Notes under the pieces: model-generated
Seen by the model: the letters and a program-made list of their open reading frames with translations, nothing else
The model's database searches: none
What the model was told of the DNA's origin: nothing
Program-made: the position numbers and the translations under genes
NCBI GenBank assembly: GCA_903842345.1
Contig: CAIMLR010000007.1
Location: 434,001 to 498,000 of the forward strand
Length of the DNA: 64,000 bases
From: an uncultured Myxococcales bacterium
GTDB taxonomy: Bacteria; Myxococcota_A; UBA9042
Direction of reading: 5' to 3'
Shown here: piece after piece, positions 14,325-63,213 of the stretch
How positions within the stretch are numbered: the stretch's first letter is position 1
How the letters are laid out: each line of letters starts with the position of its first letter

Positions 14325-14355
14325 CCTGCGCTGATCTTGGTTACGGGAGGGCAGT

Positions 14356-17300: not shown

Positions 17301-20300
17301 TGACGACGGGGAACCCTGCACTACGGGCGATCATTGTACCGCCAGCGGCGAGTGCCAGGGGACCCTCCTCGCGTGTCCGCAAGGGGTACCCTGTCAGGTC
17401 TTGGCTTGCATGAACGGGGCATGCAATCCGACGCCGCAGAGCGGCGGCTTTTGCAATGATGGCGATCCGTGCACCTACCCCGACAGTTGCCTGGGTGGGG
17501 TGTGCAATCCCGGCCCAACGGTCCCGTGCGATGATGGAAATCCATGCTCCGAGGACTCATGCACTTCGGGCGCGTGCAAGAGTGCGGATACCAGCGGCTC
17601 GTGTGATGATGGCAACCCGTGCTCATCGGATGACGCCTGTATTGGCGGAAAATGTACCGGCGTAAAGCTCGGGTGCGATGACGGCATTCCTTGCACGCTC
17701 GACATCTGCAACGCAACCGGTTGTGTTCACACGAATTCGCAGGCGCCGTGCGACGATGGTGACCTTTGCGCGTTGGGCGACGCGTGCAAGAACGGAGCGT
17801 GCGAATCCGGTGGCTTCCTTTCCTGCGACGACGGGCTTCCTTGTACCTACGACGAATGTGCGAACGGAAAGTGCGCACACAAGAACGGCGACGGTAAGTG
17901 TGATGACGGGAACTCGTGCACCGAGAACGACATTTGCGTCGGCGGGGTCTGCCAGGCCGGAGTCGCGAAACCGTGCGATGATGGCGTCCCTTGCACGTTG
18001 GACTTGTGCGTGGAAGGCAAATGTGCGCACACCGCAGTTGCTGGGCCTTGTCAGGACGGCGACGAGTGTACCGCCGGTGATAGTTGTGCGGATGGTGCCT
18101 GCAAGCCCGGAAAGGCGATGGTCTGCGACGACAAAAACCCGTGCACGACGGATGTGTGCGTAGGCGGCAAGTGTATCGTCGAGGTCACAGGCGGGGGCTG
18201 CGACGACGGCAATCCATGCACGATTTCTGATTTGTGTAACGGCGATGTCTGCGCCGGTGTGCCCAAGCCGTGCGACGATGGAAATGTTTGCACGATCGAG
18301 GCGTGCATCAACGGGGCGTGCACGAGCGTTCCGACGCCAGCTGCGTGCTCGGACGGCGTCGCCTGCACGATTGGGGATGCATGCCTGAATGGGAGTTGCC
18401 TTGCCGGGGCGGGGATGCAGTGTGATGACGCCAATCCGTGCACGACGGACCTGTGCAAAGATGCCAAGTGCGTGTTCAGTTCACTGAGCGGCACTCCCTG
18501 CGACGACGGTGTGAGCTGCACGAGCGCAGACATCTGCACTGCTGGACGGTGCGGTGGCACGTACATCACTTGTGACGACAAAAATAGTTGCACGCAAGAC
18601 TGGTGCGGCCCGACAGGCTGCCAGCACGTTTCGGTTCCTGGTCCTTGTGAAGACGGGAATTCCTGCACTACCGGCGACGCGTGCGCTCCGAACGGAACAT
18701 GCAAAGCTGGTGATCTGGTCGCGTGTCCCGACGATGGGAACCCGTGCACGACAGAGACCTGCCTATCCGGGGCGTGCAAGGAGACTGACCTGAATACGGG
18801 TGGGTGCGATGACGGGAACCCCTGCACGTTGGGCGACCACTGTGAGGCAGGGCAGTGCGCCGCGGCTCCAACGGAGAAGAGCTGTGACGACGGAAACGTG
18901 TGCACGCTCGACGCGTGCGACAAGAACGACTCCAAGATTTGCACGCACGTCCCGGCTGATGGAGCCTGTACTGACGGTTCATCGTGCACCATCGGGGATT
19001 ACTGCGAGAAATCGAGTTGCCATTCAGGTGCGACCAAGTCGTGTGACGATGGGAATCCGTGCACAATCGATGCGTGCGCTGATGGCGCATGCGGATCGAA
19101 GAACAGCGTGTCGGGATTCGCGTGTGACGATAGCAATCCCTGCACTGAAGGTGACGGGTGCCAATCGGGTGTTTGCGCTGGCGTCAGCAAAACCTGCCTG
19201 CCGGACAGTCAGTCGTGCACGCTCGAAGTCTGTGAGAAGGGCTCGTGCGTGTCCGTAAACATCGATGGAGTCCAGTGTGAGGACGGGAACGCGTGCACAG
19301 GCTCGGACTCCTGTCAGGGTGGCGCATGTGCCGCGGGAGCGGTAGTTGTGTGCGCCGACGATGGCAATCCATGTACGGTTGAGGCGTGTGACGCTAATCT
19401 CGGGTGCGGCGCCAAGTGGGCCAACGTCGGGACTCCGTGTAGTGACGCGGACGCCTGCACCGTCGGTGATGCGTGCAGCCAAGGCAAGTGCCTGGCTGTG
19501 AGCATGAAGGACTGCAGCGATGGCCAAGCCTGCACGACCGATACTTGCACCGCGGGCATCTGCGCCCACGTCCCGAACGGAGCTGCGTGTGAAGACGGCA
19601 ACGCGTGCACCATTGGGGACGCGTGCGTCGCTGGACTATGCAAGTCCGGCGTGGCGAAGAGTTGTGACGACGGCATCGTTTGCACCGTTGACTCGTGCGC
19701 ACAGGACAAAGGCTGTTCATTCCTGGCCGTGCTTGACGGTGTCGCGTGTTCGGACGGCGACGGATGCACTGCGAATGATGTCTGCAAATCGGGGGTGTGC
19801 ACCGGGGGGCCGATAGTAATCTGCCAAGACGATAACAACGCCTGTACGAGCGAATTGTGCACGGGTGGCAAATGCTCATCAACGAACCTGACCGGGACCG
19901 CATGCGAGGACGGCAACCTGTGCACGGGGCCGGACGCGTGTTCGGTTGGACAGTGCAAATCAGGCCCCCTGGTGACGTGCGAGGACAACAACCCGTGCAC
20001 TGCGGACAGTTGCGCAGCCGGGAACTGCGCGCACGTCGCGGCTCAGGCGCCGTGCTCGGACAGCGATGACTGCACGGTCGGCGATCATTGCGTCAACAAG
20101 ATTTGCGTTGGTGGCGGGCCGACGTGTCCGGATGACGGGAAACCCTGCGACAAGGAGACATGTGTCTCGGGGACGTGCGGCAAGGTTTTTCTTGACTATG
20201 CCGCTTGCGAAGACGGGAAAGCCTGCACGACGGCGGATTTCTGCCTCGGCGGAATCTGCAATTCGGGAAATTCGACGTGCACTGACTTCCTGGACTGCAC

Positions 20301-28799: not shown

Positions 28800-30542
28800 T
28801 CAACAGCGTTCGCCAACGATCGAATTCTTCAAAGCAATCTCGATTGGCCCAGCCAGCCGTTCCGCAACCGTGAAGAGGTTCGGTAATTCGGAAAACCAGT
28901 CAATTCCGGAGCCACTAGACATACTCAGGTCTCCCTGGGTGTTTTTAGTTTCACGGGCACGCAAAAACACTTGGGAAAAGGCTTCTTCGACTTTGAGTTC
29001 GAACGCGCCATCTCCAAATTTGAGTTCGGAAAACACCAACGTGACGAGCTCCCGACGCTCTGAATCGAGCGCGAAGCGGTAGTGCTCGCCGGCCGCTTTC
29101 ACCATCTCCGAGAACGACAGCACGAACTTCAGCATGTCCGTCTCAGCCTCCTTGTACGCGTTCATTTTTTCAAAGATGTCATCCAGTTCAAGTTCAAGTC
29201 GCGCGACGTCCAGCGCGTAGTCCTCGGCGGTGGTCGCGCCGGTGCGGAGCAGGAAGATCTTGTTCTTTTTCAAATAGTCCAAATCAGCGAAGACGCGGTC
29301 GCGCTGCAGGTCCAGGTCGGCGACTTCGCGCTTGCGCTTGCGCGCAATCTTGTCGAGGCCTTCCGCCGCACCCGCCTCAATCACAGCGAGTTCTGCGTCC
29401 GTGAAGCACAGCTGGTCGAGCTTGTCGGCAATCGCCGTGTCGATGTCGTGGGCGTTCAGATTGACGGTGGTGTTCTTGCAGCCTGGAACGCAGCGGCAGC
29501 GGTAGTACGTGATGCCTTTCTGCACGTACGGCGAAAACAATCGGCCGCACTGAGAGCAGCGGATGAGCGCGCGGTACGCGAAGAAGTCTTTGACGATCGG
29601 GTGGATACCGACGTTGCGGGTAGCGAGCGATTGCCGCACCGCGAGAAACACCTTCGTGTCGATGAGCGGCGCGTGTTTGCATCGCCGCGAATTCCCGAAC
29701 AGGTCCGTGTGGTGGCCGATGTAGAATGAATTGCGCAGGATGCTTTCCATCGTCTTCGGCGTCACCGGACCCGGAAGTTGCGGGCGGTCAGCTCCGTTTT
29801 CGTCGCTGTGCATCTTCTCCCGCGAACGGCGTCCGCGCGTTGGCTTGGTCGTCAATCCTTGCTGGTTGGCCCAATGTGCGAGTTGCGAAAAGCTCCACCC
29901 GCCGGTGGCATAGAGTTCAAAAAGACGTTTGACGATCGGCGCACGGACCGGGTCAAACGGTTTGGAGTCGGAGCCGTGGTCCAGGTAGCCGATGGGTGCG
30001 GGCCCGAGGCAACGTCCTTCACGGCGGAATTTCTCAAAAGTGTTGCGAACCTTCTCGCTGATGACGCGCGAGTAGTGCTGCGAAAACATACCATCGATGT
30101 CGCGATGCAACGCGCCGGAACTGGTCTTGTCGTACGTGACCTGCACGAACCGCACGTCGACAGCGCTGTCCATCATCTTCTTGATGAGGAGACCGTCTTG
30201 CTCGTTGCGACTGATGCGGTCCCAGCAGAGGCAGATGACACCCTTGAACTCGCGGCGGAGCAGCATCTGTGCCATCCGCTGGAATTTCGGACGTTCAATG
30301 TCATAGGTGACCTGACCTTCGTCCGAGAGCCGCAGCTCAGACGTCGTGTATCCTGAATGCTTCTCCTGGATCACGCCGTCGTGCGAAAAGCCCGCGAGCG
30401 TCACTTTAGCGACCTTGAGCGCGTTGTCACGCGCGTAGCGGGTGCCGGCGTCAACTTGGTATGGGAGTGAGTTCTTCTGGTTCTCCTGGTCGTCCGTGCT
30501 TTTGCGGGCGTAGACGAGGTAGGCGTCTTTGTAGGATTGCAT
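28800..30542 (-). CDS. large serine recombinase
   Basis: The protein (about 580 residues from the ATG at 30542) has the resolvase catalytic domain with nucleophile Ser15 in YARKSTDD and the arginines of CWDRISRNEQ near residue 105. It is followed by a recombinase domain (GPAPIGYLDHG onward) and a zinc-ribbon motif (CSQCGRLF with a downstream CRCVPGC), then a coiled-coil-bearing C-terminus. This architecture is that of phage and ICE integrases acting on att sites. A second resolvase-like gene without catalytic residues lies immediately upstream. Which element it serves is unclear; it may mark an older island boundary. Confidence 0.9.
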   Translation of the reverse strand: MQSYKDAYLVYARKSTDDQENQKNSLPYQVDAGTRYARDNALKVAKVTLAGFSHDGVIQEKHSGYTTSELRLSDEGQVTYDIERPKFQRMAQMLLRREFKGVICLCWDRISRNEQDGLLIKKMMDSAVDVRFVQVTYDKTSSGALHRDIDGMFSQHYSRVISEKVRNTFEKFRREGRCLGPAPIGYLDHGSDSKPFDPVRAPIVKRLFELYATGGWSFSQLAHWANQQGLTTKPTRGRRSREKMHSDENGADRPQLPGPVTPKTMESILRNSFYIGHHTDLFGNSRRCKHAPLIDTKVFLAVRQSLATRNVGIHPIVKDFFAYRALIRCSQCGRLFSPYVQKGITYYRCRCVPGCKNTTVNLNAHDIDTAIADKLDQLCFTDAELAVIEAGAAEGLDKIARKRKREVADLDLQRDRVFADLDYLKKNKIFLLRTGATTAEDYALDVARLELELDDIFEKMNAYKEAETDMLKFVLSFSEMVKAAGEHYRFALDSERRELVTLVFSELKFGDGAFELKVEEAFSQVFLRARETKNTQGDLSMSSGSGIDWFSELPNLFTVAERLAGPIEIALKNSIVGERC

Positions 30543-33878: not shown

Positions 33879-34817
33879 ATGACGTCACGCCGCAAACGCC
33901 CGGACCAACCGCTACCGTTCCAACTGGTTACGAGAGACCGAGCCGTGCTGGCCGCGGTGTTTCGACACCGATTTCTTGCCGCGCGCCACATCCGGCAACT
34001 TCACTTCCACGGCACCAACGTGCGCGCCCTGCAAGTGCGGCTGCGGCGGCTCTGGGAAGCGCGCTTCCTTGACCGGCTGTATCTGCCGCCGGAGATGCCG
34101 GACCAACGGGACCGCTGGACAGAAGTGCCGCTCTACTCCCTCGACAAGCGCGGCGCAGAACTGGTTGCTGCAGACCTCGGCATCGACATCGCGCGCATTT
34201 CGCATACGCGCGCACAGAATCGCCGCGGCTTCTTCCGCACGCGTCACAACCTCGCCGCGACTGACCTCCTGGTCGCTGTGGAAGCGTTTTGCGCGCGGTC
34301 GCCGCTGATCACCGCAACGACCACACGTGAAGACGTGCTCGCAGGTTTGCTGCTGCGCGCGAGGCGCGTGCGCCGCATTCCGTACGGACTCGTGCCAGAC
34401 GGCGCCGTGACGCTCACCATGCCCAACGTCAAGGCGCCGCAGACGTATCTCATCGAGATCGTCCGCGCCGGCGTCAAGGCAGGGAATGACACCATCCGCA
34501 AGCGGTTGCACCGGTACCGCGCGGCGCTCCGCACCGGTTTCTTTCGCGACGTGTACGGCTTCGCCTGGGTGAGAACGATCGTTTTCCTGACGCCAACGTG
34601 GCGCCGGGCCGAGACGCTTTCCCAGCTGGCGCGTGACGTCCCGGGCGGCGACGGGCTGTTTCGGTTCGGCGCGTATGAGGCCAAAGCGGCCGAGCCGCTG
34701 CCGACCGCGCATTTCCCCGGGGAAACAACGCCGCCGTTCCCGGTCCTGACGCCACAGGCCGTCCGCGTGCCGCTTTTCCCAGAACTTTCAATCACATCAC
34801 CACAACCCCATGTATGA
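33879..34817 (+). CDS. replication-relaxation family protein
   Basis: The 312-residue protein has the N-terminal winged-helix segment typical of replication-relaxation proteins of plasmids and ICEs: LVTRDRAVLAAVFRHRFL, then ARHIRQLHF and LRRLWEARFLDRLYLP, followed by VPLYSLDKRGAELVA. These proteins are thought to act in plasmid replication or mobilisation, mostly in Gram-positive elements. Start codons upstream in the same frame overlap the divergent gene, so I prefer the ATG at 33879. The stop overlaps the next gene's start by 8 bp, indicating coupling to the ATPase. Confidence 0.75.
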   Translation: MTSRRKRPDQPLPFQLVTRDRAVLAAVFRHRFLAARHIRQLHFHGTNVRALQVRLRRLWEARFLDRLYLPPEMPDQRDRWTEVPLYSLDKRGAELVAADLGIDIARISHTRAQNRRGFFRTRHNLAATDLLVAVEAFCARSPLITATTTREDVLAGLLLRARRVRRIPYGLVPDGAVTLTMPNVKAPQTYLIEIVRAGVKAGNDTIRKRLHRYRAALRTGFFRDVYGFAWVRTIVFLTPTWRRAETLSQLARDVPGGDGLFRFGAYEAKAAEPLPTAHFPGETTPPFPVLTPQAVRVPLFPELSITSPQPHV

Positions 34818-36102
34818 ACAACACCTCAAGAAGCCGCCGCTCCTCACGCTCGCAGAAACGGACTGGCGCGGCATCCACAAGCGCTTCGGCATCCTCCAAG
34901 AAGACCGCCTCCGCCACGTCTGGATCATCGGCAAGACGGGCTCGGGAAAGTCGACGCTACTGCTGCGTCTCATCGCCCAGGACCTCGCGGCGGGCCGGGG
35001 AGTCGGCGTGCTGGATCCCCACGGGGATTTGGCGCTGGCCACCCTTCGCCTGGTGCCGAAAGCGCGCACCAACGACGTCTGCTGGTTTGACCCAGCCGAC
35101 GACGAGAGCGCCGTGGCGTTCAACGTCCTGCGCCAAAGTGGTCCACAGCTGGACACGAATCTGGTCGCATCGGGCTTGGTCTCCGTCTTCAAGAAAAACT
35201 GGGCGGACATGTGGGGACCGCGACTTGAACACGTCCTCCGCTCGGCGATTCTCGCTGTGGCGCCGGATCCGCGTGCAACGCTTCTCTTCCTGTACCGCTT
35301 TCTGACCGACGAGCAGCTCAGAAGCAAAATGGCACCGCGCATCGCCGACCCCATCGTGCGACAGTTTTGGACCGTCGAGTTTCCGAACTACCGCACGGCC
35401 TTGCAGGCAGAAAGCCTCTCGCCAGTCCTCAACAAGCTCGGCGCCTTCGTCAGCAATGTTCACGTGCGACGCATTGTGTCGCAGGAGAAAAGCAAGCTCG
35501 ACATCGGCGCGCTCATCGAAAGCCGCGGCGTGCTCATCGGCAATCTGTCGGTGGGCCGCGTCGGGGAAGACGCGAGCCGATTGCTCGGCAGCTTGCTGTT
35601 GTCGTCGGTGCAACTCGCTGCGATGCGACGCGTGTCAGGCGACCCTCCGTTCTTTCTCTACGTCGACGAGTTCCAGCACTTCGTGACGGAATCGTTGTCG
35701 ACGATGCTGTCCGAGGCGCGCAAGTTCGGCATCGGCCTCACGCTGTCGCACCAGTACTTGGCGCAGCTGCCGCCCGGACTTCTCGACGCCGTGCGCGGCA
35801 ACGTCGGGTCACTCATCGCGATGCGCCTCGGCGCCGAAGATGCGCACCTCTTGCAGCGCGAAGTCGATCCGCCGTTCCAGGCGACCGACTTGACGTCGCT
35901 TCCATCCGGACGAGCTGTCGTCAAGCTGCTGGTCAACGGTCACGCGGTGGTCCCGTTCTCTGCGCGTCAATTGCCGCCGGTCTCTGTGACCCGCGACCCC
36001 GCTCGTCTCGCGGCGATTGTCGACCAGTCGCGGCGGCGCTTTGGCACCCCGACCACCGTTGTTGACCAGTTCGTCGAGCGAACCTTCAAACGATCAGCGT
36101 AG
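34810..36102 (+). CDS. TraD/VirD4-like coupling ATPase (DUF87 type)
   Basis: The 430-residue ATPase has Walker A IGKTGSGKSTLLL (about residues 37-49), a GVLDPHGDLALATL segment (about 66-80), Walker B FFLYVDEFQHF (about 281-291) and a sensor-like LTLSHQYLAQLP. This is the pattern of HerA/VirD4-type DNA-pumping ATPases next to replication-relaxation genes. There are no transmembrane segments, unlike classical VirD4, so it would be soluble or recruited. It starts inside the upstream gene's stop region and precedes the Ubl cassette by 234 bp. Confidence 0.8.
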   Translation: MYEQHLKKPPLLTLAETDWRGIHKRFGILQEDRLRHVWIIGKTGSGKSTLLLRLIAQDLAAGRGVGVLDPHGDLALATLRLVPKARTNDVCWFDPADDESAVAFNVLRQSGPQLDTNLVASGLVSVFKKNWADMWGPRLEHVLRSAILAVAPDPRATLLFLYRFLTDEQLRSKMAPRIADPIVRQFWTVEFPNYRTALQAESLSPVLNKLGAFVSNVHVRRIVSQEKSKLDIGALIESRGVLIGNLSVGRVGEDASRLLGSLLLSSVQLAAMRRVSGDPPFFLYVDEFQHFVTESLSTMLSEARKFGIGLTLSHQYLAQLPPGLLDAVRGNVGSLIAMRLGAEDAHLLQREVDPPFQATDLTSLPSGRAVVKLLVNGHAVVPFSARQLPPVSVTRDPARLAAIVDQSRRRFGTPTTVVDQFVERTFKRSA

Positions 36103-36336: not shown

Positions 36337-36546
36337 ATGCAGATCAAAGTCCTGCGCTTGGGGCACAGTGCCCGTCAAGCAGAAGCCGCCGCCGGCGCCA
36401 CGGTTGGCGAGATCCTCGATCAAGAGGGCCTCCCGACCCAAGGCCACGCGATTTCCGTCAACGGCCTGGGCGCGTCGACCACAACGGGCCTTGCCGACGG
36501 CGACGTCATCACGCTGGTCCCGAAGGTCGAAGGCGGCGCGCGTTAG
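36337..36546 (+). CDS. ubiquitin-like beta-grasp protein (ThiS/MoaD-like)
   Basis: The 69-residue protein has beta-grasp features: MQIKVLRLG as first hairpin strand, TVGEILDQEG helix, HAISVNG strand, and LADGDVITLVPKVEGG as the closing segment, as in ThiS, MoaD and ubiquitin-like modifiers. Gly66-Gly67 are followed by Ala-Arg, so the diglycine is not terminal and would need removal of two residues. The ATG at 36337 follows CGGAGA. It starts a four-gene set with an E2-like protein, a JAMM peptidase and an E1-like enzyme, which supports a protein-modifier role over cofactor sulfur carriage. Confidence 0.8.
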   Translation: MQIKVLRLGHSARQAEAAAGATVGEILDQEGLPTQGHAISVNGLGASTTTGLADGDVITLVPKVEGGAR

Positions 36547-36626
36547 CTCTCGTTTCCCAACACGTTTCACCCGTCTCGGGCCGTCTCCCAGAACCGGAGG
36601 CGGCTCGGGCGGGCAGGGAGGTCCTC

Positions 36627-37643
36627 ATGCACCACTGCGACCCAACCATGGCTGCCTATCTTGCTGACTGGCAAGCCAAACTCAATCTCACCATCCGCTA
36701 CCAGCGCTGGTCGGCGCGCTACACGGACGCGGCGCCGTTTCGCCGCGAAATCGAGCTCTTCGGGCCCGTTCCGGGCACCGCGAGCGAGTGCCGGCTGCCG
36801 TACAAAGACGGCGTCACCGTTGTCGAGCTCGTCCACGGGCGACCCCACACGGGCGAGCCGGTGGAGCTAACGGCCGGTGACGAGGCCTTCGTCGTTGCAT
36901 CCATCGAGGGCCGGCGCGTGCGTCTCGCGTTCGATCTCGAGCGGCTGTTTGAAGTGCCGGGCGAGATCCAACCGGGCCTCATCCTGGAGGCGGTGTTGTC
37001 CGCAGCGCTCCCGAAAGCCGCCGAGTACATTCTGTTCTACGACTGGCAACGCGAGAAAGCCGAGTTCTCAACCTGGATGGTTGCTTCCGTTGACGGCATG
37101 GTCCGCAACTGGAAAAACGCGATCCGTGACAATGAGTACGAAGCCAATCGCCTGACCAGCCAGATCTCCGGCCTCGTGCGCAAGAACGGCGAACTCCGCG
37201 AGCAAATCGTGGCGCTCGAAGCCACCACGCGCCCCGCGCAGGAGCAGAAGGCCACTGAGGAGTTTGCGGCGCTCGTCAAGATGATGCCGGCGCCGGTTGT
37301 CAGTGTGGAAGTCGATTACGGCAAGCTCAGCATCGTGCTGGTGCCGCTGACCCTCGAACATGACAGCACAGACTATGCGATGGGCAGCTACACGCTGACC
37401 ATCACCGCAGACAAAGTGCACATTTGGTCGGACGGCGGCTTCAGCTACCCGCATCCGCACGTCAGCTCCGACGGCGTTCCGTGCTGGGGCAACCTTGGCC
37501 CTGGCATCGGCAAGCTCCTCGGCGAAGGGCAGTACGCGGCGCTCGTTAGCGTCATTCTGGAGTTTCTCCATAGTTACAACGAGCGCGACGCGTACCGCCA
37601 CATCGAGACCTGGGACCCTGACTACAACAGCGACGACGAGTAA
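36627..37643 (+). CDS. E2-like conjugating protein with N-terminal extension
   Basis: The 338-residue protein has an N-terminal mixed domain (residues 1-160), a coiled-coil-like stretch (about 165-210) and a C-terminal segment resembling prokaryotic E2 (UBC-fold) proteins. That segment has strands at about 228-270, then Tyr-Pro-His276-Pro-His278, then Pro-Cys286-Trp-Gly-Asn in a short loop, then a helix (QYAALVSVILEFLHSYN). His-Pro-His followed by an active Cys fits E2-like families found in PRTRC-type and related operons. Cys286 is the candidate thioester residue. GGGAGG precedes the ATG. It sits between the Ubl and JAMM genes. Confidence 0.7.
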   Translation: MHHCDPTMAAYLADWQAKLNLTIRYQRWSARYTDAAPFRREIELFGPVPGTASECRLPYKDGVTVVELVHGRPHTGEPVELTAGDEAFVVASIEGRRVRLAFDLERLFEVPGEIQPGLILEAVLSAALPKAAEYILFYDWQREKAEFSTWMVASVDGMVRNWKNAIRDNEYEANRLTSQISGLVRKNGELREQIVALEATTRPAQEQKATEEFAALVKMMPAPVVSVEVDYGKLSIVLVPLTLEHDSTDYAMGSYTLTITADKVHIWSDGGFSYPHPHVSSDGVPCWGNLGPGIGKLLGEGQYAALVSVILEFLHSYNERDAYRHIETWDPDYNSDDE

Positions 37644-37726
37644 CGTCCCATCGCACCAACCAAACGGCCCTCGGCTGCCCGTGAACGACACGGGTGGCCG
37701 GGGCCGGTCATTCTTGGAGGCACCTC

Positions 37727-38326
37727 ATGAAAGTGAAACAGAATCTCAGGGTCCGCATCGACGCGGACGCCATGGAACGCATCTGGCACTGGACCGACCT
37801 GGCAACCGGGGAGTTCTCGTGCCTCGGTGCGGTCACGGACGACATCGTTGTCGGCGGCGTGCAGCTGTTCGACCAGGTCTGCACTGCAGCCAGCACCGAG
37901 CTCGACCAGGAAGCGCTGGCCAAGTTTCTCGTGACGCACCCGCAGCCGGAACGCGTCCGCGCGTGGATTCACAGCCATGGGCGGCTCGGCGTTTTTTGGA
38001 GCCAACAAGATGAGGCGTGCATCGACGGCCTCGCCAACGACACCTGCCTCATCAGCATCGTGGTCAACAAGAAACGCGAGTGGAAAGCGCGGATCGACGT
38101 GTGGCGGCCATTCCGGCTGACCTTCGACGACCTGCCGCTCGAAATCCGCGTGCCCGATCAGAATCTGCGCGCCGAGTGCGAGCAGCTGTTCAACGCCCAC
38201 GTGGTGGAGATGCAGCCGACGCTTTTGCCGGATTTCGGCGGGTACCGCCGCCAACCGGCCGGGGCACATGTGCTCGCGCTGCCTTGTTGGCCGGACTTCG
38301 ACGACGACCCCGGCGACTGGAGGTGA
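37727..38326 (+). CDS. JAB/JAMM metallopeptidase (deubiquitinase-like)
   Basis: The 199-residue protein carries a complete JAMM signature: Glu29 upstream, then His82-Ser83-His84, seven residues, Ser92 and Asp95 (HSH-x7-S-x2-D). JAMM peptidases use zinc to remove ubiquitin-like tails or modifiers, and in bacterial operons they mature the Ubl by exposing Gly-Gly. GGAGG precedes the ATG by 6 nt. The stop is 3 bp from the E1-like start. Trimming of the Ala-Arg tail of the adjacent Ubl is the simplest predicted substrate. Confidence 0.88.
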   Translation: MKVKQNLRVRIDADAMERIWHWTDLATGEFSCLGAVTDDIVVGGVQLFDQVCTAASTELDQEALAKFLVTHPQPERVRAWIHSHGRLGVFWSQQDEACIDGLANDTCLISIVVNKKREWKARIDVWRPFRLTFDDLPLEIRVPDQNLRAECEQLFNAHVVEMQPTLLPDFGGYRRQPAGAHVLALPCWPDFDDDPGDWR

Positions 38327-38329
38327 CGT

Positions 38330-38962
38330 ATGACACGCATGGACTTTCGCCGACAACTCGACGTCCTCGACGTTTCGCGCCTTAGCCAGATTCCTATCAC
38401 GGTCATCGGCGCGGGCGCAGTGGGCTCGTTCACGACGCTCGCGCTTGCCAAGTCGGGAGCCGAGCGCGTCTGCGTCTTCGACGACGACGTCGTGGAAGCG
38501 CACAACCTCCCGAACCAGTGGTACCGCTTGGCGGACGTGGGGCGGAAAAAGGTTGAGGCGCTCCGCGAGCTCGTGTTCGACATGACCGGCGTCACCATTG
38601 ACGCGCAGCCAGATCGCTCCACGGGAACGCCCGCCACCGAGGTCACGCTCTGTTGTGTGGACTCGATGGATGTGCGCAAGCGCATCTGGCAAGGCCTGAC
38701 GCCTCGGCCCAGCCTCTACGTCGACGCCCGCATGGGTGCCGAAGTCGGCCAGGTGTTTTGCGTCGGGCAGTTCGGCGCGTGGTACGAAGACACGCTGTAC
38801 CCCAGCAGCGAAGCGTACCGGGCGCCGTGCACTGCAAAGGCAACCATGTACTGCGCGTCGGGCCTCGCCGCATTCATCGCGAGCCAGGTCGCAAACTACG
38901 CGAGCGACCGTCCGACCAAACCGGAACTGACGGTGGACTTTCGCAACGCGCTGATGCTGTAG
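38330..38962 (+). CDS. E1-like ThiF/MoeB-family adenylyltransferase
   Basis: The 210-residue protein is a minimal E1/ThiF domain with a GAGAVG nucleotide loop (27-32), FDDD (50-53), an N59-Q63 pair, the K73/K74 region and CCVDS around residue 108-112. Cys167 (PCTAKA) or Cys175 may be the thioester cysteine. It would adenylate the Ubl C-terminus and pass it to the E2-like Cys286. There is no fused E2 domain, unlike Cap2 of type II CBASS. Its ribosome binding site overlaps the end of the JAMM gene, so the two are translationally linked. Confidence 0.88.
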   Translation: MTRMDFRRQLDVLDVSRLSQIPITVIGAGAVGSFTTLALAKSGAERVCVFDDDVVEAHNLPNQWYRLADVGRKKVEALRELVFDMTGVTIDAQPDRSTGTPATEVTLCCVDSMDVRKRIWQGLTPRPSLYVDARMGAEVGQVFCVGQFGAWYEDTLYPSSEAYRAPCTAKATMYCASGLAAFIASQVANYASDRPTKPELTVDFRNALML

Positions 38963-39075: not shown

Positions 39076-39107
39076 GCGCCGCTGGGGAAGCGGCGCATTG
39101 CATTTTT
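39076..39107 (+). terminator. hairpin with short U-run before primase gene
   Basis: GCGCCGCT (39076-39083) and AGCGGCGC (39089-39096) form an 8-bp stem around GGGGA, with TTTTT at 39103-39107. The T-run starts six bases after the stem, so termination may be weak or act as attenuation between the Ubl cassette and the primase gene. Confidence 0.5.
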
Positions 39108-39120
39108 GGAGTATTCAACC

Positions 39121-40191
39121 ATGGAATGGGTCAACTTTCGCGAAATCCGCGCGCGCGTCTCCATTGGCGACGTGCTCACGCTGTACTATGGGATCGACAA
39201 CCTGAAGGTCAGCGGTAAGGTCGCCACCGGTCCGTGCCCCGTGCACGGCGGCGACAACCCGCGCGGCTTCCACGTCGATTTCGACAAGAACCTCTGGCAC
39301 TGCTTTACGGGCTGCAAGAAGGGAGGGAACCAACTCGACCTTGTCGCAGCCAAGGACCAGGTCACCGTCCGGGAAGCGGCGCTTCGCCTGAAGCGTTTCT
39401 TTCTCGACAACGACCCTGCACCTGCCGTTGCTGCCGTCGATCCCACGCCACTGCCTCCGAGTGGTGTCCGGGTGCCGGCCACGCCACGCAAGGAGCGCGA
39501 CAAGCCTGCTAACCCGCCGCTTGAGCTCACGCTGCAGCTGCTACCGGACCACCCGCACATCGTGGAAGACCGCAAGCTCACCGCTAAGACCGCGGCGCAC
39601 TTCGGCATCGGCTACTGCAGCCGTGGCATTCTGGCCGGGTGCATCGGCATCCCGATTCATGATGAACATGGCCAGCTCGTCGCCTACGCCGGCCGTCGCC
39701 TGAAATTCTCCGACGCCGAGGACCTGGGCAAGTACCGTTTCCCGAAAGGCTTCCATAAGGACCGCCTGCTGTACAACCTGCACCGGGCCTTGCCGGAGGC
39801 GGACGGAGAGTTTGGCCTGGTTATCGTCGAAGGTTTTTTTTCCGCGATGTTCCTGCACCAAGTGGGCGTCCGCTCCGTCGTCGCCGTTATGGGTAGCGAG
39901 CTTTCCGACCATCAAGCGGCGCTCGCGGCCCGGTCGCGTCACGTCACCGTACTTTTCGATGGGGACCCGGCGGGATCGGTCGGCGCACTCAAGGCTGCAG
40001 AGAAGCTGGCGCCGCTGACCCATGTGCACGTGGTCCTCTTGCCTCCCGACACGGAGCCTGAGGACTGCGCGCCACAGCTCCTGCACTGGCTGCTCACCGG
40101 CGCCCGGCAGCAGAACCTCAGTTCGCTCGCGATCCTGACCGAGCCGCTCTCGACGCTACGGGCGGCGGCGGTGCCCGATATCGTTCACTAA
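39121..40191 (+). CDS. CHC2-zinc-finger/TOPRIM DNA primase-like protein
   Basis: The 356-residue protein has a primase-type zinc finger (Cys39-x2-His42, then Cys61 and Cys65) followed by a linker and a TOPRIM domain with VIVEGFFSA (about 234) and VLFDGDPAG (about 278). This is the DnaG/CHC2 arrangement. It lacks a separate helicase-binding domain. The ATG at 39121 is preferred over a TTG 15 nt upstream. Element-borne primases prime transferred or replicating single-stranded DNA, which fits the neighbouring replication-relaxation gene. Confidence 0.85.
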   Translation: MEWVNFREIRARVSIGDVLTLYYGIDNLKVSGKVATGPCPVHGGDNPRGFHVDFDKNLWHCFTGCKKGGNQLDLVAAKDQVTVREAALRLKRFFLDNDPAPAVAAVDPTPLPPSGVRVPATPRKERDKPANPPLELTLQLLPDHPHIVEDRKLTAKTAAHFGIGYCSRGILAGCIGIPIHDEHGQLVAYAGRRLKFSDAEDLGKYRFPKGFHKDRLLYNLHRALPEADGEFGLVIVEGFFSAMFLHQVGVRSVVAVMGSELSDHQAALAARSRHVTVLFDGDPAGSVGALKAAEKLAPLTHVHVVLLPPDTEPEDCAPQLLHWLLTGARQQNLSSLAILTEPLSTLRAAAVPDIVH

Positions 40192-40220: not shown

Positions 40221-40451
40221 ATGTCACTTATCGCACCGCTCACCAGCGACGGCACCGTGCCGTGCGCAAGCTGCAACACGCCCTGGTCAATTCCACTGCT
40301 CGCGAAGTTCCGCGCCGCCCACCGGCTCCGCGCGGAAGGGTTCGCGTACATCGACTTCGGCGACGCGCTGCTCATCAACTATTGTCCGCACTGCGACCAG
40401 CCTGCCGCCAACCGGGAGGTGCCCTCATGGGCGGAACCGCTGCTGAACTGA
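40221..40451 (+). CDS. small zinc-ribbon protein
   Basis: The 76-residue product has two CxxC knuckles (CASC near residue 13 and CPHC near residue 58) separated by a helix and strands, typical of a zinc ribbon. It overlaps the following metallopeptidase gene by 25 bp and lies 29 bp after the primase gene. AAGGAG precedes its ATG. Partner and role are unknown. Confidence 0.6.
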   Translation: MSLIAPLTSDGTVPCASCNTPWSIPLLAKFRAAHRLRAEGFAYIDFGDALLINYCPHCDQPAANREVPSWAEPLLN

Positions 40452-41110
40452 CGATCGCGCTTTCGAACGTTTGGGCGGCGGTGCAGCGCAATCACCCGGA
40501 AGTTCCCAACGTTGTTCTGCTTGCGGCTCCCAACCCGCACGGCAACCGCAACGTCCTCGGGCACTTCGCTGCGCTGCGCTGGTCCAGCAAACCAGGCGAC
40601 GGCGGCAATCTCATCCACGAGGTTGTCGTCGTCGCCGAACATCTCAACCGTTCTGCCGAAGACATCGTCGCCACTTTGCTGCACGAAGCGGCCCACGCGC
40701 TGAACTTCGCGCGCGGCATCCACGACTGCAGCAAGTCGCAGTACCACAACCGGAAGTTCGAATCGGCCGCGCAAGAACTCGGCCTCTCTGTCACGCAAGT
40801 GCCGCACTACGGCTTCGCCTACACGGAGATGCCGGCGGAAACTGCTCAGCGTTACACCACCGAGACGGAAGAACTCCGCCAGGTGCTCATGCACCGCCGT
40901 CCGATGGTGAGCACTGCCAAGCCGACGTCGACCGGAGCAGGGGACAGCGACGACAGCTTACCCGATGGTACCGAACCGCCAGACAAGGGCGGCCGGTACA
41001 AGAAGGCGTCGTGCAAGTGCCCGTTCAACATCCGCGTGGCGCGCGCGACGCTGGCCGCGACAACTATCCAGTGCACCACCTGCGGCGAGCCGTTCCAGCT
41101 TGCCGCATGA
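40427..41110 (+). CDS. SprT-like zinc metallopeptidase
   Basis: The 227-residue protein has the HEAAH zinc-binding motif at residues 86-90 (TLLHEAAHALNFARG), a downstream YHNRKFESAAQELGL segment, and a C-terminal zinc ribbon (CKCPFNIR and CTTCGEPF). SprT/Spartan proteins act on DNA-linked proteins in their best-known forms, and similar proteins are common in mobile elements. GGAGGT precedes the ATG inside the upstream zinc-ribbon gene. A strong terminator follows at 41119-41162. Confidence 0.8.
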   Translation: MGGTAAELTIALSNVWAAVQRNHPEVPNVVLLAAPNPHGNRNVLGHFAALRWSSKPGDGGNLIHEVVVVAEHLNRSAEDIVATLLHEAAHALNFARGIHDCSKSQYHNRKFESAAQELGLSVTQVPHYGFAYTEMPAETAQRYTTETEELRQVLMHRRPMVSTAKPTSTGAGDSDDSLPDGTEPPDKGGRYKKASCKCPFNIRVARATLAATTIQCTTCGEPFQLAA

Positions 41111-41451: not shown

Positions 41452-41700
41452 TCAATCGCTCTCGAGCTGGTCGAGCAGATCCGCGTGATGCACGGTGAAG
41501 CAGGCCAGGCAAATTCCTGTGCTGCGCGGCAGCTGCTGTCCGGCCAACTCACACGCCGCCGAATCGCAGTGGCGCCTGCAGTCTCGCGTGGCCGCGTCAG
41601 CATGCACGCAGCCATAGACTTCCCGACAGTATTGGCAGTCTCGCCGCGCAACGACCTCGGGGCGGGGTGCGCGTGGCATTGACGTTGCATCGTTCATCAT
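41452..41700 (-). CDS. small Cys-rich putative zinc-binding protein
   Basis: Starting at the paired ATGs at 41700/41697, the 82-residue product has CQYC, YGC, DCRRHC, SAAC and ICLAC, a dense Cys/His pattern suggesting two zinc knuckles. It is divergent from the CD-NTase gene. The start is uncertain because no clear ribosome binding site is seen. Confidence 0.45.
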   Translation of the reverse strand: MMNDATSMPRAPRPEVVARRDCQYCREVYGCVHADAATRDCRRHCDSAACELAGQQLPRSTGICLACFTVHHADLLDQLESD

Positions 41701-41941
41701 GGTTGTCACGCGGGGCGCTGTCGGCGGGAAGCCGGTCATGTCCGCAAGTCTCCGTTTGTGTGGCGGGATCGTCAATGCCGTTCCCGCCGCGGAACTGTGC
41801 CAAGTTGGTGTCATTTCTGGACTTGTGCTGCCTCGGATGTCGAACCCACCGGACATGCCCGCGACGATTTCAACTACGCTCGACCTTGACAAGCGGCCGG
41901 CGCATCTTTTCTTTGCCGGTCGACTTTGGGGGAGAGGAGTG

Positions 41942-42874
41942 ATGGCACGGGACTGGCACGAGGATTTCAAACGCTGGGCAAAGCCGCCGAGCGAAACGGA
42001 AGAGCAGAAGGCGAGCAACGCGGCGTCCATGATCAACGACGCCATTCGCGCGAGTCCAGCCTTGGCGCGTCGCGGAGTCAGCGTGTACGCGACCGGCTCC
42101 TACCGCAACAACACCAACGTCCGGCTCGGCAGTGACATTGACGTTGCAATCGTCCTCAACGATGGCATGTTCTTCGACCTGCCGATCGGCCTGACCGCCG
42201 CACAGGTTGGCATCACGGTGCCGCTCGACTACGGGCTGGCCGACTTTCGCTCTGATGTTGCCCTCGCACTGACGGCCAAGTTCGGGCACGGGGGCGTCAA
42301 GCCAGGCAAAAAGACCTTCAACATCACAGCCAACAGCTACCGCTTGGAGGCCGACGCGACCGTGTTCTTGCAATACCGTCGCTACACGGGCGCTAAGACC
42401 GCCGCCGGCGGCTGGCACTACGAGCAAGGCGTCGAGTTGCGTCCGGCTGACAACCCCAACGCGCGCGTCATCAACTGGCACGACGACCACTACGCCCATG
42501 GCATTGTACGTAACGACGCGACTGGGCGACGCTTCAAGCGCGTGACCCGCATTCTCAAACGCCTGCGCGACGAAATGAGCGAGTCCGGGCGAGCCGAAGC
42601 TCAGCGAGCGGCGAAGCCGATGAACTCCTTCCTCATCGAGTGTCTGGTGTTCAACGCGAGCGACGCGTGTTTTGGTCGGGTCCAAGGCAGCTACTACGAA
42701 GACGTCCGAGCCGTCATCGGGGAGTTGTGGCAAAAAACAGAGGATGACGTCGTGTGCACCTTCGACGAAGTGAATCGCAAAAAGAAGCTGTTCGGCCCTG
42801 GGCAGGACTGGACCCAGCAGCAGGCCAACAAATTCTTGTATGAGGCGTGGCTCCATGCCGGGTACGGCCGCTAA
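41942..42874 (+). CDS. CD-NTase (CBASS cyclic oligonucleotide synthase)
   Basis: The 310-residue enzyme has the DncV/cGAS-like nucleotidyltransferase signature: Gly52-Ser53 followed by Asp65-Ile-Asp67 (GSYRNN, then LGSDIDVAIV) and a third acid at Asp138 in EADATVFL. The helical C-terminal half includes VNWHDDHYAHG-like and RFKRVTRILKRLRDEM segments. It should make a cyclic nucleotide upon phage infection. GGGGGAGAGGAG before the ATG at 41942 decides the start. The effector gene overlaps its end by 20 bp. The C-terminus ends Gly-Tyr-Gly-Arg. Confidence 0.9.
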   Translation: MARDWHEDFKRWAKPPSETEEQKASNAASMINDAIRASPALARRGVSVYATGSYRNNTNVRLGSDIDVAIVLNDGMFFDLPIGLTAAQVGITVPLDYGLADFRSDVALALTAKFGHGGVKPGKKTFNITANSYRLEADATVFLQYRRYTGAKTAAGGWHYEQGVELRPADNPNARVINWHDDHYAHGIVRNDATGRRFKRVTRILKRLRDEMSESGRAEAQRAAKPMNSFLIECLVFNASDACFGRVQGSYYEDVRAVIGELWQKTEDDVVCTFDEVNRKKKLFGPGQDWTQQQANKFLYEAWLHAGYGR

Positions 42875-43466
42875 GATCTTGAACGCACTGGCTAACGCAA
42901 CGTTCACTGACTGGGTCACGGTCGTCAGCGGCGCGGTTACGATCTTCGTTTTTCTCCGTGCTGGCTTCGAGCGCTTCGCCTGGCGATGGCCCGGTGTCCG
43001 GCGACTGGTCAGCCAGCCCGACCTCGGCGGTACGTGGCACGGGCACTTGCGTCCGAGGGCGAGGAACCTGCACGCCGGTTCAGCGCTGTCGTCCATCGAG
43101 GTCACCTTCATCGTGCATCAAACGCACGGCCAGATTTCGCTGACCATGACATCGGCCGAATCGCGCTCGGTGACCGTCGTTGCGTCGCTGGCGCAAGATG
43201 CACCGGGCGAGTGGGCCGTCATCGCGGCGTACCGGAGCGAACCCAACCTCGAAGTGCGCGAGAACAGCCCGATACACTTCGGCTGCTTCAGGCTGCGTGT
43301 CATCAACGCTTCGACGCCGCGCTTGGCTGGCCATTACTGGACCGACAGGGCGACGTCCGGCGAGATTGACGTCGCGCTCCTGACCCGGCAGCCCGTCAAC
43401 GATTTCAGTTCGGCATGTCAGTTGGCGCACGCGCGAGACCCAAGGGGCGCCAACGTTGAAACCTGA
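42855..43466 (+). CDS. Cap15-like membrane beta-barrel CBASS effector
   Basis: The product (203 residues from the ATG at 42855; 42840 is an alternative) has one clear N-terminal hydrophobic segment (about 15-34) and possibly a second weak one. It is followed by a beta-rich domain starting DLGGTWHGHL and continuing with regular strands. Cap15 effectors (TM segments plus a beta-barrel opening with GxWxG) bind a cyclic nucleotide and disrupt the inner membrane. Overlap with the CD-NTase gene makes a two-gene CBASS. No E1/E2-type Cap2 or JAB-type Cap3 is adjacent. Confidence 0.78.
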   Translation: MPGTAAKILNALANATFTDWVTVVSGAVTIFVFLRAGFERFAWRWPGVRRLVSQPDLGGTWHGHLRPRARNLHAGSALSSIEVTFIVHQTHGQISLTMTSAESRSVTVVASLAQDAPGEWAVIAAYRSEPNLEVRENSPIHFGCFRLRVINASTPRLAGHYWTDRATSGEIDVALLTRQPVNDFSSACQLAHARDPRGANVET

Positions 43467-47962: not shown

Positions 47963-48925
47963 TCAACCCGGCGGGCCGGTCGCTTGGGCGCGGGACTGGC
48001 GTTCCGCCGCGAACGCCTGGCCGAGCTTTTCTGTCGCGGAAATTCGCTCGACGCCTGCCACGTGGATGTACCGCTCGGTGGTCGCCACGCTCGCGTGCCC
48101 GCAAATCTCTTGGATAACCCGGATGGGGACGCCGAGCGTGGACAGCTGCGTCGCGCTGGAATGCCTCAGCGCATGTGGGCTCACACGTCGTTCGATGCCC
48201 GCAAGCACCGCGTACCTGCTGACGAACGCCTGGATCATGCGGACCGACAAGCGCGTGCCGCGATCCGACAGCCAGAGCGCCTGCTCATTGTCTGCTCCAT
48301 GCAGCCGGTGACGATTCGCCAGGTACGCCTCAAGGCTCTCGGCGACGACGTCGTTGAACACGGCCCCAAACGTCCTGCTCCCCTTGCGCCGCACGGACCG
48401 AAACACGCGCGCCGCGAGGTCTGCTTGGCGAACGTCCAGATTCGCGACCTCGGAGACGCGCAGCGCGCAGTGAAAGAATACGTTGAGGATTGCGACATTG
48501 CGCGTGCGGTAGATCGGCGGGGAATGACGCTCTGCCGCTTCCACAAGCGCCACCATCTCGGACAAGTTCAAGGCGTCAGGTTCCGTGTACGGAACCCGTT
48601 GACGAGCTATGGGCTGCGCCGGGTTGTCCGTGCGTCGTCCGGTGTCCTGCAGAAAGGCGCAGAACGCACGCACAGCGCTCAGCCGCACATTCCAGCGTGC
48701 GCGCGCGATTCCAATGTGGCTGTCGGTGCCAGACCCCAAGAACGCCTTCAAGGTCGGCGTGTCAACGCCGATGAGCGCGGCTTCGCCACCGACGCGTACA
48801 TCGAGGTTGTGGATGATACGCACGTATTTTTCGACGGTGCGAGGCGAGCGCAGCCGGACACGTCGAAGATGCCCGGCGAACTCGGTCTGCAGGTCTTGAA
48901 GCGGTGTGTCAGAAGAAGACGTCAT
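47963..48925 (-). CDS. tyrosine recombinase (XerC/D-like)
   Basis: The 320-residue recombinase has an N-terminal SAM-like domain and the catalytic set: Arg in HCALRVSEVANL, Lys in RRKGSRTF, His-x-x-Arg in PHALRHSSATQ, His in GHASVATTERY, and the nucleophile Tyr in ERYIHV. The length and motifs are Xer-like. It sits in the middle of the island, so it may resolve dimers or mark a nested element. A GTG 18 nt upstream is an alternative start. A DnaA-box-like motif lies about 80 bp upstream. Confidence 0.9.
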   Translation of the reverse strand: MTSSSDTPLQDLQTEFAGHLRRVRLRSPRTVEKYVRIIHNLDVRVGGEAALIGVDTPTLKAFLGSGTDSHIGIARARWNVRLSAVRAFCAFLQDTGRRTDNPAQPIARQRVPYTEPDALNLSEMVALVEAAERHSPPIYRTRNVAILNVFFHCALRVSEVANLDVRQADLAARVFRSVRRKGSRTFGAVFNDVVAESLEAYLANRHRLHGADNEQALWLSDRGTRLSVRMIQAFVSRYAVLAGIERRVSPHALRHSSATQLSTLGVPIRVIQEICGHASVATTERYIHVAGVERISATEKLGQAFAAERQSRAQATGPPG

Positions 48926-49003
48926 AGAGTCTGAAGAGTACACGCGAAACGCAATGCTCTTCTACTCCATGTTGCGGGAAACATCGGATTCACGCAAGGG
49001 AAC

Positions 49004-49029: not shown

Positions 49030-50907
49030 ATGTCGCTCCACCCCACACATCTGCTGTTGACCGCTGTGTTCTTCTGCTCGTCGTGCTCATCCGGTGCTGT
49101 GCCCGCCGGTACGGCATTGGCTGCGTACGGGGAGCCCTGCAGCACCGCCCTGGATTGCGCCGCGAACCTGGCGTGCGCCGGCGGCGTGTGCACAGCGCCG
49201 CTGCTCTCCGATGCGGAAGTGGGCGACTCCGCAACTGCCGAAATCTCCCAGCCGGCGGACGCGAACGACGCCACGTCCGATGCCGAAAACGACGTCGAAC
49301 AGAAACTGGACGTCTGCGTTCCGACGTGTTTGCCGAGTTCGTGCACGGATACGTGCGGCGGCGCGACGTGTACAGGACCGTGCGTCGACAACAATCCCTG
49401 CACGGTTGGTGACACCTGCAAAGGCGGCATGTGCGCTCCGGGAGCACCGAAGCCCTGTCCGACCGCCGAGCCCTGCGTGAACGCTGCGTGCAGTGTCGCA
49501 AGCGGCTCGTGCGTGCTCGTCAATAAGCCAGAGGGAACCGGCTGCGATGACGGCGACGCATGCAGCCAAGCAGATGCCTGCGCTGCAGGAGTGTGCACGG
49601 GTCAAAAGCTGGACTGCGACGACAAGAACCCGTGCACGGGCGATGTCTGCAACCCGAAGTCAGGCTGCACGCACCTGCCGGTGCCTGGACCGTGTAACGA
49701 CGGCAACCTATGCACCGTGAACGACAATTGCGCTGCCGGGATCTGCGTGCCCGGCAAGACGAAAAACTGCAACGACGCATCGGTTTGCACCAAAGACTCG
49801 TGCAAGGTGGCGACGGGTGCGTGCGCGAATGACCCTGGCCCGTTCGACGGGACGTCCTGCGACGCTGACGGATCTCTGTGCACAGTTGCCGACGCCTGTG
49901 TCTCCGGCGTTTGCACGCCGGGCGCAAAAGCCAACTGCGACGACGGCAATCCGTGCACTGCGGACCTGTGCAATGTCGCGACCGGGTGCAAGAACAGCCC
50001 CATCACGGGCACGTGCAACGCCGACGACAACGCCTGCACAATCGACCTGTGCGTATCTGGCGTCTGCACCGCCGGAACGGCCAAGGTGTGCAACGATGGC
50101 AATCCCTGCACGGCCGACTCGTGTGGCGTTTCGACTGGCCTCTGTGTGTTTGCTCCGGTTCCGGACGGCAACGGGTGCAACGCCGACGGGAGCCTCTGCA
50201 CCGACCAGGATTTCTGTAAGTCCGGGATCTGCACCCCTGGTCCGACACTGGACTGCGACGATGGAAACGTCTGCACGACCGATCAGTGCCTCGCGCCGAC
50301 CGGCTGCATCCACGACCCGAACAGCGGTCCATGCGATGCCGATGGCAGCGACTGCACCGCCAACGATTCGTGCAGCAACACGGTGTGCACCGCCGGCACG
50401 AAGCTCGACTGCGACGACAAGAACGTCTGCACCAACGACGCGTGCGACCTTGCGACCGGGTGCACGCACACCGACAATACACTCACGTGCGACGACGGCG
50501 ATGACTGCACCCAGAACGACGCGTGCGCCACGGGGAAGTGCGCCGGAGTGCCGTTCAAGTGCGACCCGTGCCTAAAGCATGGCGGCACAGCGTTGACGCT
50601 GACGGCCGACCACATCGTGGTGTGCACCGGGCAGGTGACCCTTGAAGGAGTGGACGGCATCGTGCTGTCAGGCGGCTGGAACCTGTGCTCCAAGTCCCAG
50701 ATGCTGACCTGGGCGCCTGCAAAGAGCAGCATGGACGTCGAAGGCCTCCAGGAATTTTTCTGGGCGAGCGACCCGTGCACCGTGATGTACTCGGCCAGCC
50801 ACTATGGCTACTCCGCGGTAGGCAACCTGAACGCGGGTGGCTCGTGGCAGTGCGAGAACGGATGGTACATGAGCCAATCGAGCAGGATTCTCGCTTGTCA
50901 CGATTAG
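49030..50907 (+). CDS. Cys-rich repeat lipoprotein on mobile island
   Basis: The 625-residue protein has a lipoprotein-like signal (hydrophobic residues 8-15, then CSSC at 17-20) and an Asp/Glu/Ala linker. It carries about fifteen CDDGNxCTxxxC-type units (about 110-515) and a C-terminal domain of about 100 residues with conserved Trp, Gly and Cys pairs (GWNLCSK, CENGWYM). It is a shorter relative of the two giants at 10317 and 14356 and lacks their propeller and hydrolase domains. Its presence inside the island suggests cargo. Confidence 0.75.
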   Translation: MSLHPTHLLLTAVFFCSSCSSGAVPAGTALAAYGEPCSTALDCAANLACAGGVCTAPLLSDAEVGDSATAEISQPADANDATSDAENDVEQKLDVCVPTCLPSSCTDTCGGATCTGPCVDNNPCTVGDTCKGGMCAPGAPKPCPTAEPCVNAACSVASGSCVLVNKPEGTGCDDGDACSQADACAAGVCTGQKLDCDDKNPCTGDVCNPKSGCTHLPVPGPCNDGNLCTVNDNCAAGICVPGKTKNCNDASVCTKDSCKVATGACANDPGPFDGTSCDADGSLCTVADACVSGVCTPGAKANCDDGNPCTADLCNVATGCKNSPITGTCNADDNACTIDLCVSGVCTAGTAKVCNDGNPCTADSCGVSTGLCVFAPVPDGNGCNADGSLCTDQDFCKSGICTPGPTLDCDDGNVCTTDQCLAPTGCIHDPNSGPCDADGSDCTANDSCSNTVCTAGTKLDCDDKNVCTNDACDLATGCTHTDNTLTCDDGDDCTQNDACATGKCAGVPFKCDPCLKHGGTALTLTADHIVVCTGQVTLEGVDGIVLSGGWNLCSKSQMLTWAPAKSSMDVEGLQEFFWASDPCTVMYSASHYGYSAVGNLNAGGSWQCENGWYMSQSSRILACHD

Positions 50908-63137: not shown

Positions 63138-63213
<76 letters not shown>

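Follow-up and report, generated by a model that had tools for sequence, protein, structure and literature searches.

A predicted ubiquitin-like conjugation cassette on a Myxococcota island, with relatives beside replication and recombination genes in phages

Ubiquitin-like conjugation in bacteria is known mainly from anti-phage defence. In Bil operons the genes for a ubiquitin-like modifier (Ubl), an E2, a JAMM peptidase and an E1 stand together in one operon. Mobile operons of Ubl, E2, JAB and E1 genes have been known since 2006 (PMC1779556), bacterial ubiquitination-like operons named Bub have been added (Gong 2025 and Ye 2026, cited by PMC13373217), and Borg elements are reported to carry de-SAMPylases and one SAMP (PMC12660748). 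Here we describe a cassette of these four components in 64,000 nucleotides of an uncultured Myxococcales bacterium (contig CAIMLR010000007.1, positions 434,001 to 498,000; hereafter the window), to which related complete cassettes were found in mobile elements and phages.

The four genes are adjacent plus-strand open reading frames (36337–38962 of the window), free of frameshifts and with Shine–Dalgarno-like sequences upstream, and all were found where a first-pass annotation made from the sequence alone had placed them. The Ubl gene (36337–36546, +) encodes a 69-residue beta-grasp modifier ending in LVPKVEGG-AR, with VEGG as the predicted mature C-terminus. The E2-like protein (36627–37643, +; 338 residues) comprises an N-terminal domain, a predicted long helix (residues 140–219) and a UBC core (205–338). 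Next come a JAMM/MPN+ isopeptidase (37727–38326, +; 199 residues) with metal and catalytic residues E29, H82, H84, S92 and D95, for which a GTG at 37694 is a possible start and the ATG at 37727 is preceded by a GGAG box, and a free-standing E1 (38330–38962, +; 210 residues) with a GxGxxG adenylation site and a candidate catalytic Cys167 (codon 38828–38830) in APCTAK. Pfam and NCBIfam models returned a ThiS-like match for the Ubl, a ThiF-like match for the E1, sub-threshold hints only for the JAMM protein and no match for the E2. Because the same order, Ubl-E2-JAMM-E1, is kept in about 20 loci at 70–90% identity, the cassette lies far beyond chance. Seeds for gene calling at these loci were set by homology, and a long antisense reading frame overlaps the window E1. 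Identification as a Ubl-conjugation cassette is well supported, with the chemistry predicted from sequence and fold, and the gene set seems equipped both to put a small ubiquitin-like modifier on proteins and to take it off again.

The E2-like protein is predicted to adopt a UBC fold with an active-site cysteine. Candidate Cys286 (codon 37482–37484) lies in YPHPH-VSSDGVP-C286-WGN, where the HPH-x7-C spacing equals the HPN-x7-C spacing of eukaryotic E2s. AlphaFold2 modelling of the core (residues 205–338, DNA 37239–37640), using an alignment with 16 diverse relatives, reached pLDDT 84.9 and pTM 0.81 and arranged it as helix, beta-meander, HPH-Cys loop and helices; the full-length model (pLDDT 53.7) was too poor for use. 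The ten best Foldseek matches of the core model in the PDB were all E2s (probability 0.84–1.00, TMq 0.35–0.57), among them UBE2L3, UbcH5c, Ube2W and Ubc13, some in ubiquitin complexes. A profile of the core against the PDB was likewise headed by E2s (UBE2L3/UBE2D) with the cysteine aligned, UBE2L3 first (E 0.006), in an alignment that spans the whole domain and sets HPNIDEKGQVC opposite HPHvssdGvpC, while a full-length profile returned coiled-coil noise only. The first-pass annotation had said that its reading would fall if the E2 fold around Cys286 were absent or if the proteins were of the thiamin or molybdopterin type; modelling, Foldseek and profile searches speak against both. In Candidatus Uhrbacteria (L028:6386–8158) two E2-like genes stand in tandem, and the first, in which Met replaces the catalytic Cys (HPCVSENGFLM), resembles an inactive E2.

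For the modifier, Pfam ThiS matched at 3.9e-8 and the family profile found SAMP2 as its best PDB match (2.6e-8, in an entry that also contains JAMM1), which points by sequence profile to the beta-grasp Ubl with C-terminal glycine that the annotation had proposed. G67 is invariant in 15 relatives and the residues after it vary. All Ubls from the two Myxococcota settings described below, types A and B, end in EGG followed by a variable tail of two to four residues (AR, SK, SL, NK, LL, AHHA); more distant ends read VEGG-E, VEGG-R, RGG-NQ, KGG-Q, KAGG-QVTVRERPQGS and TSG-C/SK/LA, and a few Ubls (L075, L129, L099) stop at GG. One viral contig carries a polyubiquitin-like gene for a tandem head-to-tail di-Ubl (L103:11669–12079; ...VKGGGEITVKV...VKGGR), its units ending in ...PAVKGG. 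Variable tails and the tandem gene call for a processing peptidase, and the tails have the look of a peptidase-matured modifier.

The JAMM protein holds the full metalloprotease motif HSH-x7-S-x2-D, exactly as annotated (HSH-GRLGVFW-S-QQ-D), and 12 relatives, phage proteins included, all keep E29, H82, S83, H84, S92 and D95. Its profile matched the Rpn11-like protein 6fjv best in the PDB (1.3e-8), which we take to be from Caldiarchaeum, followed by RPN11 (3.5e-5). The stand-alone ThiF-type E1 (Pfam ThiF 3.5e-16) found UBA5 first (1.2e-17), then UBA1 (4e-16) and then ThiF (3.6e-15). Its putative adenylation domain (GxGxxG, D, K) and candidate catalytic Cys167 in the PCT motif of APCTAK are present, the adenylation-site residues and Cys167 being invariant in 15 relatives, including phages, at identities down to 24%. 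At two loci of genome G009 (L078 and L079) the profile detected no E1 beside the E2-like and JAMM genes, which in L078 are joined by a Ubl; there the E2-JAMM genes adjoin a PAS histidine kinase or a caspase/FGE-sulfatase protein.

Among described systems, PRTRC cassettes, which in our own reading are type 6d of Iyer et al. 2006, likewise have separate Ubl, E2-like, JAMM (JAB) and E1 genes, and a weak likeness appears in the window E1 (TIGR03736, 45 bits) and JAMM (TIGR03735, 14 bits). The similarity to PRTRC-type operons put forward in the first-pass annotation did not extend to membership, however. All curated PRTRC models (TIGR037xx) stayed under their cut-offs, with protein A at 14.2 of 101.8 bits, ThiF at 45.4 of 144.75 bits and no match for B and C, and an NCBIfam scan of ten window proteins in and around the cassette found none of PRTRC parB, D, E or F. 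The type 6d E2-like protein is without the usual histidine (PMC1779556), whereas the window E2 has HPH-x7-C, and window-type JAMM and E1 genes differ further in standing beside a primase or Rad52/exonuclease genes. We conclude that the cassette is a variant within the already known mobile Ubl-operon kind, one that misses the PRTRC models and departs from type 6d in the E2 histidine.

Bil operons also combine Ubl, E2, JAMM and E1, but the linkage to DNA-metabolism genes and the relatives in phages may set the present cassette apart from this bacterial ISG15-like anti-phage system. The solved bacterial E1-E2-Ubl complex 8tz0 was a weak fold match (E 0.57, probability 0.15–0.20), far below the eukaryotic E2s, and PADLOC, whose coverage of Bil models is uncertain, gave no match for the Ubl, E2 or JAMM proteins. 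The E1-E2 fusions of type II CBASS (Cap2/Cap3) share the E1 adenylation domain, PADLOC E1-E2 models matching at best at 1.3e-11 over about 70 residues; this assignment was rejected, the window E1 and E2 being separate reading frames accompanied by a dedicated Ubl and JAMM. The CBASS pair that the window does contain (41699–43466) consists of cyclase and Cap15 only and is separate from the cassette. Archaeal systems resemble single components, with the Ubl closest in the PDB to SAMP2 of the SAMP2/JAMM1 system and the JAMM protein closest to the Rpn11-like member of the Caldiarchaeum Ub/E1/E2/Rpn11-like cascade; they differ in that the window cassette lies on a mobile element, is linked to single-strand annealing protein (SSAP) or primase genes, and has no RING gene that we noticed.

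The genome of the window holds the cassette four times, in two settings, and its three further E1 copies are 72–81% identical to the window E1; E1s of the two settings form separate groups in trees (support 98/95). In type A (six loci: the window, C42 and L008–L011) the order, complete where the contig reaches, is relaxation protein, coupling ATPase, cassette, DnaG-like primase, small protein and SprT. The window members are a Replication-relaxation protein (PF13814; 33879–34817, +; Pfam 9.3e-12; start codon uncertain; kept in C42, L008, L009 and L011), a TrwB/VirD4-like coupling ATPase (34810–36102, +; TrwB_AAD_bind 2.3e-8; 73–78% in type A loci), a DnaG-like primase with CHC2 zinc finger and Toprim domains (39106–40191, +; Toprim_4 5.9e-11, Zn_ribbon_DnaG 2.9e-10; TIGR01391 8.1e-40, under that model's cut-off), a conserved 76-residue protein (40221–40451, +) at the same place in all six loci, and an SprT-like metalloprotease (40526–41110, +; Pfam SprT-like 7e-6) that ends the backbone run and is kept there. 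The primase stands directly 3' of E1 in type A loci, and Pfam and NCBIfam matches bear out the earlier placement of the cassette between a coupling ATPase and a primase-like gene.

In type B (C17, C47, L012 and many others) the cassette is followed by DUF6908, a Rad52-family protein and a PD-(D/E)XK nuclease, the last not at that place in C17. In C17 and C47 (L035–L038) and relatives, DUF6908 (PF21849) sits between E1 and Rad52 where the contig is intact; a conserved HTH_3 regulator is seen farther along in these loci. E2 is the most conserved gene between the types (mean identity 88% versus 79% for Ubl and 75% for E1), and the flanking cargo varies: the window has CBASS, C47 and C17 have genes for restriction and for other kinds of defence. 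Across the phylum E2 is present in 15 of 379 genomes. Within the window's family, Rad52 occurs in 7/8 E2-positive and 0/14 E2-negative genomes (hypergeometric 4.7e-5, uncorrected for genome relatedness), mostly within about 2.2 kb of E2, and in the window's own genome no Rad52 was found away from the cassette.

Scanning IMG/VR with the E2 profile recovered P22-like phage contigs (terminase, portal) with the arrangement Ubl-E2-JAMM-x-E1, followed after E1 by a Sak4-like SSAP (phrog_124 8e-27), a primase/DnaB helicase and Gp157. Scanning with JAMM yielded 30 loci, in 28 of which E1 is the next gene; L109 has a different gene order, and in L123 the E1 is cut off. Of the viral loci, 23 continue for four or more genes beyond JAMM, and 20 of these have an SSAP, primase/helicase or exonuclease gene nearby. 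Named phages with the E1 include crAss001 and its relatives, Flavobacterium phages, and Xanthomonas and Erwinia jumbo phages. The gene order in crAss001 runs from a helicase and Sak4 through further genes to a primase, gp79, gp78, JAMM gp77, E1 gp76 and gp75, after which come uracil-DNA glycosylase, Holliday resolvase, PD-(D/E)XK exonuclease, RNR, dUTPase and Pol I. The E1 and JAMM assignments in crAss phages are firm. Although gp76 (L097:8428–9579) is annotated as thiamine biosynthesis protein ThiF, it more likely serves as E1 in a Ubl cassette together with JAMM gp77. For gp79, which has an N-terminal domain ending in KSG, and gp78, which carries YMHSHV...PCTG, we propose Ubl and E2 identities from motifs and position.

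Flavobacterium phage Fpv1 has the same gene run as crAss001, flanked by genes for a Toprim protein and for a UvrD helicase; its JAMM frame is split by a minus-strand reading frame (L098:6665–8957), possibly an inserted mobile gene or intron, and the second piece starts with the catalytic HSH. In Xanthomonas phage PhiXhv-12 the E1 lies between ligase and topoisomerase genes, and just 5' of it are genes for a small protein ending in SGG and an 892-residue protein with an HPH...C motif. Searches with tblastn found nothing close to the type B E2 in named phages or to the E1 in plasmids. Ubl, E2-like, JAB and ThiF proteins all go unmentioned in a survey of jumbo phages (PMC7824862), and we found no published phage-borne complete cassette, which is weak evidence given incomplete coverage of subscription journals.

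We hypothesize that the cassette is probably a reversible Ubl-conjugation system that modifies replication or recombination proteins of mobile elements, with gene linkage suggesting the target. The JAMM protein would mature the Ubl by cutting its precursor behind the glycines (...VEGG|AR); E1 would adenylate the glycine C-terminus and then carry the Ubl as a thioester on Cys167, from which it would move to Cys286 of the E2 for attachment to target lysines; and JAMM would remove it again. The likeliest targets would be an SSAP, exonuclease or primase of the mobile element, and the tag would regulate the element's replication, recombination or transfer. Conjugation itself, its stepwise chemistry, and the identity of the target and the effect on it are what we infer. 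Linkage to DNA metabolism recurs: the E1 gene is followed by a primase in type A, by DUF6908-Rad52-PDDEXK in type B and by a Sak4 SSAP and primase/helicase in one phage clade, and in crAss001 and Fpv1 the genes lie in replication regions. Since these partners are non-homologous yet functionally alike (Rad52 or Sak4, exonucleases, primases), replication and recombination proteins appear to be the targets or beneficiaries, in keeping with the earlier suggestion that the cassette may concern replication or transfer proteins.

Several points weigh against this interpretation. Its support comes from sequence, fold and linkage. Linkage by itself is no proof of replication or recombination targets, and many phages keep replication genes together, so that modular packing could account for it. 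The 23 viral loci come mostly from one clade and represent few independent events, and the count of 20 has no null model. Individual E2 sequence matches to the PDB are weak (none better than the UBE2L3 match above), and the crAss E2 and Ubl showed no significant similarity to the window families (hhalign probability 0.5% and 2%). Type B copies lie near restriction genes, which makes a defence role possible.

Defence against phages or other mobile genetic elements, of the Bil or type II CBASS kind, is the foremost alternative, though an unlikely one. Here the Ubl would be put on a protein of the invader or on a defence enzyme, blocking infection. Defence operons with Ubl, E2, JAMM and E1 are known (Bil, type II CBASS; PMC13373217, PMC10097602), the window island has the CBASS cyclase/Cap15 pair, and type B flanks include restriction genes, an HNH type IV-like nuclease, PDC-S39 and an IetA-like AAA protein. 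These defence genes vary among loci, however, whereas the constant partners are primase or Rad52/exonuclease genes; relatives inside phage replication modules, crAss001 included, argue against a purely antiphage role, and PADLOC gave no match for the Ubl, E2 or JAMM proteins.

Less likely again is counter-defence, in which the element would tag its own SSAP or exonuclease against host recombinase sensors, or tag or de-tag host defence proteins. Phage recombinases are reported as targets of several defence systems (PMC11846896), and in several lineages the cassette has SSAP genes as neighbours, but type A is linked to a primase and coupling ATPase with no SSAP in the same gene run. We consider it improbable that the cassette is hitch-hiking cargo, a self-standing maintenance or addiction module whose position by replication genes has no functional meaning. 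Addiction-like behaviour of mobile Ubl operons has been suggested (Iyer et al. 2006; PMC1779556), yet the same kind of neighbour recurs with non-homologous proteins (Rad52 versus Sak4, PDDEXK exonuclease, primases) and neighbour order is fixed within each lineage. Sulfur transfer of the ThiS/ThiF or MoaD/MoeB type in place of protein conjugation, to which the Pfam and NCBIfam labels and the thiamine annotations of phage E1s would point, can be dismissed given the E2 fold with its Cys, the JAMM protein, the Ubl residues beyond GG, NCBIfam scores far under cut-off (ThiS 17.3 of 37.45 bits, ThiF 49.4 of 275 bits) and the absence of thiamin or molybdopterin genes among the neighbours examined.

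The cassette appears to lie in an 88-kb tRNA-inserted island, as had been suspected. A tyrosine integrase (61795–63054, +; Phage_integrase 2.6e-20) adjoins a tRNA-Thr(CGT) gene (63138–63213, -), the presumed attachment site, whose 3' half (from 63136 on) recurs imperfectly, with 42/48 bases matching, in the same orientation at contig position ~408,977, 88 kb upstream and outside the window, where no tRNA is predicted; from the copy and the adjoining integrase we infer the island. It also holds a serine recombinase (28803–30542) and a second tyrosine recombinase (47963–48943). A second Replication-relaxation protein adjoins the tRNA-side integrase (60481–61350), which raises the possibility that the island stacks two sets of transfer-like genes. 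Very long Cys-rich proteins with CDDGNxCT-type repeats flank the cassette at 10317–21351 and 49030–50907. The first-pass annotation had seen no obvious antiphage effector; this stands for the cassette itself but not for its surroundings, where a CBASS-type oligonucleotide cyclase (PADLOC 8.8e-97) and a Cap15/2TM effector lie 2.7 kb downstream, at 41699–43466.

The finding suggests ubiquitin-like tagging as a means by which mobile DNA controls how it is replicated or recombined. We advance more tentatively the wider proposal that such Ubl systems are widespread in phages and islands (Myxococcota islands, marine phages, Flavobacterium phages and crAss-like gut phages) and built into replication and recombination modules, where reversible tagging of an annealing protein, exonuclease or primase would control replication or recombination of the element. 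The question is testable in cultured phages, namely crAss001, Bacteroides phage DAC15 and Flavobacterium phage Fpv1, in which the E1 gene is filed as a thiamine biosynthesis or hypothetical protein. If the wider proposal is true, these systems would form a prokaryotic parallel to the control of PCNA and RAD52 by ubiquitin and SUMO, and the question of the ancestral function of ubiquitin would shift towards DNA metabolism.

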